A stretch of DNA of 64,000 nucleotides from Pseudobdellovibrionaceae bacterium (lineage in GTDB: Bacteria; Bdellovibrionota; Bdellovibrionia; Bdellovibrionales; UBA1609): the NCBI GenBank assembly GCA_947444305.1, contig CANEZP010000006.1:1-64000 (forward strand), in the 5' to 3' direction. Shown here in pieces: positions 17,589-64,000 of this stretch; positions within the stretch are counted from its first letter, which is position 1, and every line of letters starts with the position of its first letter. The notes under the pieces were generated by a model that did not search any database, was not told where the DNA came from, and worked only from the letters and a program-made list of their open reading frames with translations. The position numbers were made by a program, and so were the translations under genes.

Positions 17589-18158
17589 ATGAAATCCTCA
17601 ATCGGCCGCCTTGGCCTCGTCGTTCTGACCGCTTCGTTTTGCTTAATTTCGGCCGCCCACGCGGGTTCGAAAGAAAAGACCGTAAAAGTCGGCGGGGCCG
17701 AGATGTACCCGTCGAAAGATATCGTTGAAAACGCCGTCAATTCAAAGGACCACACGACATTGGTGGCCGCCGTGAAAGCCGCCGACCTCGTCAAAACCTT
17801 GAAGAGCGACGGCCCGTTCACCGTTCTCGCGCCGACCAACGCCGCTTTCGCTAAACTTCCCGCCGGCACCGTCGAGAGTTTGTTAAAGCCTGAAGCCAAG
17901 CCCACGTTGAGCAAAATCCTCACCTACCACGTCTTGGCGGGCAAATTTGATTCGAAAGACTTATTGAAACTGGTTAAAGACGGCGGCGGCAAAGCGGTCG
18001 TAAAAACCGTCGCGGGCAATGAACTCACCCTCTCGCAAAAAGATTCCGTGCTAGTGATCACGGACGAAAAAGGCGGATCAGCTCATGTTTCGATCGCCGA
18101 CGTTCATCAGAAGAACGGTGTCATTCACGTGATCGACGCCGTTTTGTTGCTCAAGTAA
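17589..18158 (+). CDS. Secreted fasciclin (FAS1) domain protein
   Basis: A 189-residue protein with a Sec signal peptide (cleavage after AHA, about residue 25) and one FAS1 domain (about 45-188). Diagnostic motifs are FTVLAPTNAAFAKLP, ILTYHVLAGK and GVIHVIDAVLLLK. FAS1 proteins act in adhesion or matrix contact, and small bacterial ones are periplasmic or extracellular. A strong stem-loop lies after the stop. It is a lone gene. Confidence 0.92.
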   Translation: MKSSIGRLGLVVLTASFCLISAAHAGSKEKTVKVGGAEMYPSKDIVENAVNSKDHTTLVAAVKAADLVKTLKSDGPFTVLAPTNAAFAKLPAGTVESLLKPEAKPTLSKILTYHVLAGKFDSKDLLKLVKDGGGKAVVKTVAGNELTLSQKDSVLVITDEKGGSAHVSIADVHQKNGVIHVIDAVLLLK

Positions 18159-18175
18159 TTCATACCGTCAGGCTC

Positions 18176-18201
18176 GGGGTGGAGCTCTCCACCCCGCTTT
18201 T
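18176..18201 (+). terminator. Rho-independent terminator of the fasciclin gene
   Basis: A perfect 8-bp stem GGGGTGGA / TCCACCCC with loop GCTC, followed by GCTTTT. A second hairpin (GCGTTGCC / GGCAACGC, 18209-18229) follows at once. Confidence 0.75.
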
Positions 18202-18324
18202 CCGCTTAGCGTTGCCGCCATGGCAACGCTTCGCATTAGTCTTCTGCCGCGAGCCACTCGCCCCGGGCATTGAAGGATTGACTCAGACCCCCACTTCCCC
18301 GAAAACAACCTTGGTCATTATTAT

Positions 18325-18421
18325 GGCCGGGTCCCACGCAATAGCGGTTCTTGTGAACCCCGCCAGGTCCGGAAGGAAGCAACGGTAACAAGAATGCTGT
18401 GTGATGTGGGGTTGCCCGGCC
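18325..18421 (+). ncRNA. ffs: Signal recognition particle 4.5S RNA
   Basis: About 97 nt. It contains the near-universal SRP apical core CCAGGTCCGGAAGGAAGCA (binding site for Ffh) and closes with GGCCGGG pairing with the terminal CCCGGCC, giving the single long hairpin of the small bacterial SRP RNA. It lies just upstream of dnaX, a common arrangement. Ends are set from the base pairing and may be off by a few bases. Confidence 0.95.
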
Positions 18422-18428
18422 ACTCAAC

Positions 18429-18535
18429 ATTGCGGGTCGTAGGCTTACGACCCCTGGGTATCAGATATTGCGGGCTGAATGCTTTCAGCCCTTGGGTAAA
18501 GCAAACATTGCGGGTCGAGTTTACGACCCTTTCAA
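18429..18535 (+). repeat. Three tandem stem-loops between ffs and dnaX
   Basis: Three units, each starting with ATTGC and then a stem: GGGTCGTA/TACGACCC (18434-18453), GGGCTGAA/TTCAGCCC (18472-18491), GGGTCG/CGACCC (18512-18529). The first two have four-base loops and are followed by TGGGTA. The stems differ in sequence yet stay paired, so the structure appears to be conserved. They could be processing or attenuation elements in the ffs-dnaX transcript, or a REP-like repeat family. Confidence 0.75.
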
Positions 18536-18547
18536 AGGTTTAGATCA

Positions 18548-20302
18548 TTGTCTTACGAGGTCATAGCGCGCAGGTGGCGACCGCAGGATTTTCTTGGGCT
18601 GATTGGCCAAGATCATATCCGCACGACTTTGATCAACGCGCTCAAAAACAATCGCTTACACCACGCTCTTCTTTTTACCGGCCCACGCGGGACGGGTAAA
18701 ACTTCGACGGCGCGAATCCTCGCTAAAACTTTACGCTGCCCCAACGCGGTCGACTTTGTTCCCTGCAATAAATGTTCGGAATGCGACGAGATCAATTCCG
18801 GCCGTTCGCTCAACGTCATCGAAATCGACGGGGCTTCGAACAACGGCGTCGACGCGATTCGTGAGCTGCGCGACACCGTCGGCTATTTGCCCTCGAGCGG
18901 GCGCTTTAAAATGTACATCATCGATGAAGTGCATATGCTCTCGACTTCGGCGTTCAACGCTCTTCTCAAAACTTTAGAAGAGCCGCCCGGTCACGTGTAT
19001 TTCGTGATGGCCACGACCGAAGCTCATAAAATCCCGAACACGATTCTTTCGCGCTGCCAGCGCTTTGATTTTCGCCGTATCCCCACGCGCGTGATCGCGC
19101 AGCATCTACAAACCATTTGCGAACGCGACGAGGTGAAGTTCGAAGCCGACGCGCTCTGGATCGTCGCGCGCCAAGGTGACGGTTCGATGCGGGATGCGCA
19201 GTCGCTGCTCGACCAAACGATTAACTTCACCAACGGCGATGTTCGCCGCGATCTCGTCGTCGATACCCTCGGCTTAACCGATCGTGGTTTGCTCTTGCAG
19301 CTGCTCGGCGCGCTGACCGGCCGTGACGTGCCGGCCGCGATCACGGGTATCCAAAGTTTAAATAAAACCGGCAGTGACCCGAAGTTGTTTTTGCTCGACG
19401 TGATGGAGCAGCTTCGCAATACCTTGTTGCTTAAGCTCGGCGCCGACAAAGCGCTCGTCGATCTGCCCGACTCCGAAATTGAAGCGTTGATCAAGATGTC
19501 GGAGGCCTCGACGCCCGAGGAGCTGCACTTGCTCTTCGACATGGCTTTAAAAGGCGCGCAGGATTTGTCGCGCGCTTCCGACACGCAACTTGTTCTAGAA
19601 ATGATTTTGCTTAGAATGGCGGCCGCGCCGAAGGTTAGCTTCGCCGGCCATGCGCAGACCGGTCATGCGCAATCCGCCCACTCAGGACCCTCGAACGCGG
19701 CCCCGGCTCCCGTTCGCCAACCGCCCGCCCGTACCGCCCCCGTGAGGAACGCCCACGCGGCCACGCCCGCAAATACGGGCGCGGATCCGGGGCCGACGGC
19801 GCCCATGCCGACCCAAGCCCATACGCCGGCGCCGCCGCCGCCGAAACCCGAGATCGTGGCCCAAGAGCCCGACGCCGATTCGCCGGTACAGCAGCAGTTT
19901 CGATCGCTCGTCGAAAAAATCAAAGACGTGAACGGACTCGTCGGCGCGCAGCTCGAAAATTGTTTCGTGATTAAGCTCGAGGGCAAACAGCTCTTCTTGG
20001 GCGTGTCACAGAAGCACCGCTTCTTATTTGATAAGTTAAATCAGCCCGAGTTTAAGAAAAAAGTGGTGAACTACGTTTCCAGCTTCTGGGGGCCGGGTTA
20101 CACTTTGGACATTCAGCTCGGCGATTCGCGCGGGCAACCCGAGAACATGACGCCCAAAGTTTTAGGCGCCAAACTCGAGGAAGACCGCCAGTCGGCGCTT
20201 CGTAAAGAAATCGAAGCTCACCCGCTGGTGCAGTCGGCGCAATCGGTTTTCAAAACGGAAATCAAATCCATTAAAGAGGTTCCCTCAAGGAGTAAGTCAT
20301 GA
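18548..20302 (+). CDS. dnaX: DNA polymerase III subunit gamma/tau
   Basis: Clamp-loader ATPase of the replicase. 584 residues: Walker A GPRGTGKTS (45-53), zinc module with C64, C73, C76, C79, Walker B IIDEVHMLS, sensor/SRC motif SRCQRFDF. A Pro/Ala-rich linker (about 360-445) leads to a tau-type C-terminal domain. The start is TTG at 18548; it gives the canonical MSYEVIARRWRP and has AAAGG upstream. I see no clear A-rich slippery site for a gamma form. Its last codon overlaps the ybaB start (ATGA). Confidence 0.96.
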   Translation: MSYEVIARRWRPQDFLGLIGQDHIRTTLINALKNNRLHHALLFTGPRGTGKTSTARILAKTLRCPNAVDFVPCNKCSECDEINSGRSLNVIEIDGASNNGVDAIRELRDTVGYLPSSGRFKMYIIDEVHMLSTSAFNALLKTLEEPPGHVYFVMATTEAHKIPNTILSRCQRFDFRRIPTRVIAQHLQTICERDEVKFEADALWIVARQGDGSMRDAQSLLDQTINFTNGDVRRDLVVDTLGLTDRGLLLQLLGALTGRDVPAAITGIQSLNKTGSDPKLFLLDVMEQLRNTLLLKLGADKALVDLPDSEIEALIKMSEASTPEELHLLFDMALKGAQDLSRASDTQLVLEMILLRMAAAPKVSFAGHAQTGHAQSAHSGPSNAAPAPVRQPPARTAPVRNAHAATPANTGADPGPTAPMPTQAHTPAPPPPKPEIVAQEPDADSPVQQQFRSLVEKIKDVNGLVGAQLENCFVIKLEGKQLFLGVSQKHRFLFDKLNQPEFKKKVVNYVSSFWGPGYTLDIQLGDSRGQPENMTPKVLGAKLEEDRQSALRKEIEAHPLVQSAQSVFKTEIKSIKEVPSRSKS

Positions 20303-63242: not shown

Positions 63243-63788
63243 CTAAGCGGAAGATTTTCGCCATGCCGAGGTTTGCGGCCCGAATTCGCGGATGATGATA
63301 TCCGCGTAATCGCGTTCGTGCCCTTGGCTTTCAAGTTGGTTAACCAAAACGTAATCTCTCACGCTTAGGAAGGCCCGAAAACCAATCACGACGCGCGTGA
63401 ACGGCCGGTAATCCCAAAACTTAGTTTTGTTTTTCTTCAATTTACTCGCGCCGGTCATAGCTAACGCAATCGTGCCGGTCACCGCGCGAATGAAAGCTTT
63501 GTACGTAAACCGGTTCGCGAGCTGAATATGCAAGTGCAGATGATTGCCAACGTTCGCGAGCGTGTGAATTTTCACTCCGTACTTCGCCGCGAAGCGATCG
63601 ATGATCCCGCGCACTTTCTTACGATGTTTTAAGAATGATTTCTCACCCTTCGCTTGGCTCGAACGCAGAACAACGTGCATGGAATGCTTCACCGCGAGTG
63701 GCCGACTGCCTTGACGACCTTTTCGCGTGTTGCGGAAAGTGCCTCCGTAGAAATTCTTTTCGGACTTTAGGAGTTTCAGCTGCTTCAT
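63243..63788 (-). CDS. HUH/Y1 transposase, REP-associated (RAYT) type
   Basis: A 181-residue IS200-like protein. The HUH motif lies in NVGNHLHLHIQL (H83, H85, H87) and the catalytic Tyr is likely Tyr146 in RDYVLVNQLE. The basic N-terminus and lack of an adjacent tnpB fit RAYTs, domesticated enzymes that mobilise REP hairpins. A REP-like hairpin lies about 100 bases upstream. It may process REP sequences genome-wide. Confidence 0.8.
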   Translation of the reverse strand: MKQLKLLKSEKNFYGGTFRNTRKGRQGSRPLAVKHSMHVVLRSSQAKGEKSFLKHRKKVRGIIDRFAAKYGVKIHTLANVGNHLHLHIQLANRFTYKAFIRAVTGTIALAMTGASKLKKNKTKFWDYRPFTRVVIGFRAFLSVRDYVLVNQLESQGHERDYADIIIREFGPQTSAWRKSSA

Positions 63789-64000
63789 CGTGACCGATGG
63801 TATATTGGGTCGTGGAAATTTGCTAGTTTCTATCTTCGAATGGGCTGATTTTGGTGGTGCGTTAGGTTGTCCGTCCTTGAGAAGGCCTTCTTCACGCCGT
63901 CCGCGGCGTGAAGACCTAGATTTTGGGGAGATTGATTTTTTAGGGGGAAAGTCGGAGAGATAGGGAGGCTTTTTGGGGTTGGTCGTGCCGTGCGTTTCGC
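63789..64000. other. Gene-free window end
   Basis: 212 bases upstream of the RAYT gene with no supported gene. Apart from the REP-like hairpin it holds several G-rich runs (GGGGAG, AGGGGGAAA, TTGGGGTTGG). Confidence 0.5.
63890..63913. repeat. REP-like hairpin upstream of the RAYT gene
   Basis: CTTCACGCCG pairs perfectly with CGGCGTGAAG, loop TCCG. A short palindrome GAAGGCCTTC directly precedes it. Position next to a RAYT gene suggests a REP element. Confidence 0.7.

Follow-up and report, generated by a model that had tools for sequence, protein, structure and literature searches.

What are the three tandem hairpins that lie between the SRP RNA gene and dnaX in this bacterium, and do they belong to that site? 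In the 64,000-nt stretch of Pseudobdellovibrionaceae DNA that we analysed (the window), the SRP RNA gene ffs (18325–18424, plus strand; Rfam RF00169, 72.1 bits) lies directly upstream of the array. The dnaX gene for DNA polymerase III gamma/tau (18548–20302, plus strand) is an ORF with a TTG start that matches Pfam PF13177 and PF12169. A preliminary description had taken the hairpins, with covarying stems and shared flanks, for a selected RNA structure or a repeat family, at a spot that links ffs to the replicase operon. We confirmed three tandem hairpins at 18429–18529, all on the plus strand and head to tail within the spacer. Unit 1 (18429–18453; ATTGC-GGGTCGTA-ggct-TACGACCC) and unit 2 (18467–18491; ATTGC-GGGCTGAA-tgct-TTCAGCCC) form perfect 8-bp stems with the loops GGCT and TGCT, and 3 of their 8 stem pairs differ, with compensation on both sides. 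Unit 3 (18507–18529; ATTGC-GGGTCG-agttta-CGACCC) follows the plan of unit 1 minus 2 nt in the 5' arm, so that only 6 bp are paired. The observation that stems vary yet pair was therefore correct. The flanks are shared in part: ATTGC precedes all three units, but TGGGTA follows only units 1 and 2, while unit 3 has TTTCAA behind it and next to that AAAGG (18534–18538, plus strand), the probable ribosome-binding site of dnaX.

The pattern ATTGCGGGN{8,16}CCC matched three times in the window, each time in the ffs–dnaX array, against a shuffle mean of 0.46; none of 100 window shuffles reached three matches. A 141-nt fold of the region gave z = -3.4. At Rfam gathering thresholds, only the SRP RNA and one tRNA passed in the window, and the array units matched no family. 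No promoter-like or terminator-like site was called at 18150–18650, so ffs and dnaX may be co-transcribed. Along its whole length the 5' arm of unit 1 (18434–18441) can pair with the 3' arm of unit 3 (18522–18529), which offers a long-range alternative fold; the folding energy was -38.3 kcal/mol for the three local hairpins alone and -49.9 kcal/mol for the alternative with this pairing. As the hairpins lie between the 3' end of the SRP RNA and the dnaX ribosome-binding site, any effect would fall on SRP RNA 3' maturation or on dnaX expression, and they would separate the SRP RNA 3' end from dnaX translation. A T run directly behind the SRP RNA 3' helix is seen in several relatives (L010, L015, L019, L021); none is present in the own genome (18418–18428) or in the same-genus genome G002 (L005).

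The unit proved to be dispersed. A blastn search with the array region brought up further single hairpins in the own genome, whose stems differ, and ATTGCGGGN{8,16}CCC gave 26 rows genome-wide versus 13 for the reversed control. The pattern ATTGCGGG-N14-CCC gave 12 rows genome-wide, with complementary inner arms in 9 of them, fully so in 8; this pairing test is independent of choosing paired copies. We then built two covariance models, R1 from 14 units and R2 from 40. R1 gave 37 own-genome matches at E <= 0.01, and R2 gave at least 47 rows at the same threshold, representing at least 46 distinct hairpins, a lower bound because 150 of 1,288 first-look candidates were scored in the R2 search; training units necessarily match the model that they helped to build. 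In an unfiltered R1 scan of the window, units 1–3 were the only matches at E <= 0.001 (units 1 and 2 being among the 14 training units), and the next two matches were ffs–dnaX hairpins on the other strand. Searched in the own genome, units 1 and 2, both R2 training units, reached R2 E values of 3.4e-7 and 5.3e-8, while unit 3, a training unit of neither model, reached 0.0065 with R1 and 0.0039 with R2. In 378,540 bp of own DNA, 10 of the 60 strand-flanks of perfect 8-4-8 hairpins had TTGC before the stem, and no other tetranucleotide reached more than 2; in a sample of the same-genus genome G003, TTGC was not among the top tags. The pattern counts, the shuffles and this enrichment rule out chance hairpins. 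Counting the tag with one mismatch on contig C3 gave 50 occurrences versus 34–45 in a Markov control, no excess, so degenerate copies cannot be counted in this way.

To describe the unit we used an alignment (A5) of 40 gap-free units, including four added from a scan of contig C3. The unit opens with an unpaired tag (A-T/C-A-TTGC), continues with an 8-bp stem that begins with GG or GC and encloses a 4-nt loop N-G-Y-N, and closes with a T-rich tail; a single copy lengthens its site by about 36–39 nt. The 8-bp stem and 4-nt loop hold for all 40 units, other geometries having been excluded: unit 3 (18507), L071:1021 with a 3-nt loop and L146 with a long stem. Palindromes that reappeared on the reverse strand were also left out, as were L092 and rows of weak or irregular form (L145, L148, L150, L151, L153, L154, L155, L081:1443-1476, L072:1582, L088:1440, L074:1437 and L091:1437). 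The tag lies outside the stem, at one end only, and its TTGC columns are conserved in 36–39 of 40 units (T 37, T 36, G 36, C 39), as in the unpaired motif of the REP class. The first stem pair is G-C and the second loop base G in 38 of 40 units each, and the first tail base is T in 39.

All eight stem pairs are changed on both sides in some unit, yet 99.1% of the 320 stem cells are paired and only 7 of 320 are not Watson–Crick. The covariation score was 0.852, versus 0.05–0.16 when partners were slid by 1–3 columns; as many A5 units had been picked with pairing in view, the ATTGCGGG-N14-CCC result is the fairer test. On the sense strand the cells outside Watson–Crick pairing comprise 4 G-U and 3 C-A, near-equal numbers that give no sign of selection for RNA rather than DNA pairing. 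Since pairing is kept across paralogous copies, the sequences leave room for a role as RNA. Multi-unit arrays run head to tail, and neighbours within them share 68% of stem positions 3–8 versus 45% between loci (permutation p 0.006), a likeness expected if arrays grow locally.

The placement of the copies is strict. We examined 37 loci, each represented by the first unit of its array and including the doubtful L092, L213 and L214, with genes called by a home-made caller and tRNAs by ARAGORN. The copies are dispersed and mostly intergenic, as in the REP class, with one of the 37 loci inside a predicted ORF. The upstream feature was on the same strand in 33 of the 37 loci and on the opposite strand in 3; one of these fell away, leaving two, once the gene for ribosomal protein S21, which lies 79 nt before the stem and had escaped the caller, was counted. 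At 26 of the 37 loci the stem starts 5–15 nt past a stop codon or RNA 3' end. By comparison, random intergenic points with random orientation (3,001 draws, contig C3) gave 38% same-strand and 5.9% same-strand within 20 nt. At co-directional junctions, 23 units were sense versus 1 antisense. The one clear antisense unit, L092 (G000, the own genome, contig C3:234788-234820), lies immediately after the stop codon of a gene on the other strand; this position and the extra DNA relative to G003 ruled out a false match inside a gene. At L214 (G000 contig C11:140676-140708), the unit lies inside a predicted ORF at a site where the own genome is 36 nt longer than G003, a possible in-frame insertion into a protein.

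The genes that precede the units are of kinds generally known to be highly expressed. By Pfam they include seven ribosomal proteins (L27, L21, S11, S9, S12, S18 and S21), chaperones and core proteins (Hsp70 (DnaK), Cpn10 (GroES), Cpn60 (GroEL), enolase, an HU-type DNA-binding protein and DnaN), F1 ATPase beta (AtpD), SecF, ExbD three times, CsrA and FtsA, as well as a class II tRNA synthetase, a rhomboid protease, an exonuclease and a LuxR-type regulator; two small upstream ORFs had no Pfam match. Among RNA genes, units follow those for two tRNAs (Ser, Trp) and ffs. If ribosomal genes number 54 among 3,767, the binomial probability of meeting seven of them at 36 loci is 7e-7; the total of 3,767 is an extrapolation from contig C3, and the loci at rplU and rpmA belong to a single operon. 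That operon, rplU-rpmA-obgE (L071 1021-1596), carries six units, two after rplU and four after rpmA, and a terminator-like hairpin with a T run lies between the first and second of the four.

We found no comparable family in relatives. R1 matched none of 57 relatives at E <= 0.05, and in the three same-genus genomes (G001, G002 and G003) the best R2 match under normal filters had E 0.51. Across the phylum, R2 at E <= 0.01 found one or two weak matches (E 5e-4 to 0.01) in each of 8 of 367 other genomes, where about 4 genomes are expected by chance with the strict filters used and at most 19 candidates scored per genome. No similar DNA was found in phage and plasmid records. The three same-genus relatives keep ffs beside dnaX without hairpins, and the spacer of 123 nt here measures about 28, 16 and 31 nt in G001, G002 and G003; the locus can thus do without them. 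A DnaX scan of named genomes covered eight loci, one from a Bdellovibrionales MAG and seven from distant genomes. The stretch that separates the aligned groES and groEL flanks measures 108 nt here, against 33 nt in G001 and 29 nt in G003. Twelve sites had alignable G003 flanks, among them ffs–dnaX, groES–groEL, atpD–atpC, dnaN and rpmA–obgE; at these the own genome is 36–165 nt longer, and no tagged unit was seen in G003. At the single-unit sites L082, L092 and L214 the excess over G003 is 39, 36 and 36 nt. The nearest relative is too distant for any clear target duplication or exact ends to be made out.

These comparisons support the preliminary description in part. The search of the rest of the genome and the covariance models bore out a repeat family, now at least 46 hairpins genome-wide, whereas the conserved, locus-specific RNA element fails with the absence of the hairpins from close relatives. 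The proposed link to the replicase operon does not hold either: ffs–dnaX is 1 of 37 loci examined, and the relatives have the same gene pair with a spacer of about 16–31 nt and no hairpins. The hairpins at ffs–dnaX are real, and they are members of a genome-wide family with strict placement and no special tie to that operon.

REP sequences are known beside RAYT genes, and the own genome encodes 24 Y1_Tnp (RAYT-like) genes versus 10, 6 and 6 in the three same-genus genomes. None of the 24 surroundings contained the unit at E <= 0.05 (best E 0.066), which rules out a RAYT-flanked REPtron for all 24 genes at that threshold. A different covarying hairpin, whose stem varies but stays paired, lies upstream of 19 of the 24. 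The Y1_Tnp gene in the window (63405–63686, minus strand) has such a hairpin upstream at 63889–63914, with an 11-bp stem ending GCCG and a loop TCCG or CGGA.

How does the family compare with known palindromic repeats? In published accounts, tagged REPs (GTAG etc.) are short intergenic palindromes with stems of 5–13 bp and compensated variants (PMC3733652; PMC8266576); they lie near ORF 3' ends, and some families are confined to a single species (Di Nocera et al. 2013, PMC3733652). The units resemble GTAG REPs, BIMEs and RAYT-associated REPs, as described there, in being tagged palindromes with compensated stems, intergenic, behind ORFs and, like some of those families, limited to one species. 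They differ in their tag, ATTGC rather than GTAG (or GYAG, GYRG, GTRG, GTMG, GTGG), and in that GTAG REPs flank RAYT genes, whereas no unit lies beside any of the 24 Y1 genes. The same survey, in its part on REP pairs, gives head-to-tail pairs as absent, under-represented or negligible and opposed pairs as dominant (PMC3733652); the arrays here are in sense and head to tail, which differs from GTAG REPs and from CGTC REPs alike. With CGTC families, for which the survey's account gives no dedicated transposase (PMC3733652), the units share that lack, the position behind ORFs and an 8-bp stem with a 4-nt loop, as in CGTC-1 (8–9 bp/4–5 nt). The tag is again different (not CGTC, TGTC or CCTC), CGTC stems are described as almost always starting with two A-T pairs while the units start with G-C in 38 of 40, and the described CGTC tail is CCA while the tail here is TT-rich with T as first base in 39 of 40. 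A literature search on palindromic repeats in Bdellovibrio and Bdellovibrionota and on REPs at highly expressed genes yielded no such family among the matches listed.

Could the units instead be weak intrinsic terminators or attenuators, in which the stem and T-rich tail end part of the transcripts and tune the ratio of upstream to downstream product? They do share with terminators a stable GC-rich hairpin (mean -13.4 kcal/mol over the 40 units), a place just past a stop codon or RNA 3' end, and a tail that contains some T, beginning with its first base. The T run is weak, however, with 3.1 T of 6 on average and five or more in only 5 of 40 units, and no terminator-like call was made at the ffs–dnaX locus (18150–18650). 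Units also lie inside operons, e.g. groES–groEL and atpD–atpC, and carry a conserved unpaired 5' tag that a terminator does not need. Given the T-poor tails and the terminator-like hairpins with long T runs that stand beside some units (L071, L073, L079), terminator action is less likely, and we regard a terminator family as improbable. We give equally little credence to the idea that mutation rather than selection keeps the pairing, through quasi-palindrome template switching that copies changes from one arm to the other. Compensated changes are common, cells outside Watson–Crick pairing are rare (7 of 320) and the wobbles show no asymmetry, all in favour of this process; tag conservation, sense orientation and gene preference are left unexplained by it, and it could act together with REP-like spread. 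Less probable still is an element selected specifically at ffs–dnaX to control SRP RNA maturation or dnaX expression. Three units in one spacer with pairing kept, and an alternative fold joining units 1 and 3, would suit it, but the same repeat unit occurs at dozens of other loci, and the relatives without hairpins rule out a conserved element there.

We therefore favour, with a probability of roughly 0.7, the reading that the hairpins are copies of a REP-like family, tagged, palindromic and mostly intergenic, that recently spread in its own species. The family itself, its geometry, the compensated stems, the absence from relatives and the extra DNA at orthologous sites were observed directly, as were the sense orientation, the placement just after stop codons or RNA 3' ends, and the head-to-tail arrays of similar neighbours. 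The family is best read as young, species-restricted and REP-like, with a new tag, and as transcribed into hairpins behind highly expressed genes. TnpA-REP enzymes are reported to bind DNA as folded single strands, and with strand specificity (PMC8266576). By analogy, copies may move as folded single-stranded DNA, perhaps with a tyrosine HUH transposase acting in trans on a strand exposed by heavy transcription, and arrays would grow afterwards by local duplication. Both the orientation and the preference for certain genes would follow if folded strands were inserted at 3' ends that are heavily transcribed. For E. coli, PMC12306157 reports that a REP hairpin within 15 nt of a stop codon stalls ribosomes and that REPs protect mRNA from exonucleases. 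A role of the hairpins as RNA is plausible on this analogy: the transcribed units may hold the terminating ribosome, block 3'–5' exonucleases and dampen read-through.

For dnaX, the array is a record of insertion history and not conserved control. A more tentative reading, and in our view an unlikely one, is that transcription directs the spread: folded single-stranded units would enter the non-template strand where it is exposed, at the 3' ends of the genes with most transcription, and almost always in the sense orientation. Transcripts of ribosomal-protein, chaperone, tRNA and SRP RNA genes would in this way come to share one RNA hairpin. If this were true, one species would recently have gained de novo a 3' element common to its growth genes, which a single protein or RNase could read. 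Set beside the GTAG and CGTC families as the survey presents them (PMC3733652), the family offers a third kind of tag, head to tail, strongly sense-oriented and behind core genes, and it is young enough that relatives keep unit-free sites. That survey leaves the spread of CGTC families and the action of REPs as RNA as questions; the present family is a compact system for studying how palindromes of this kind spread and how they affect the genes that precede them.
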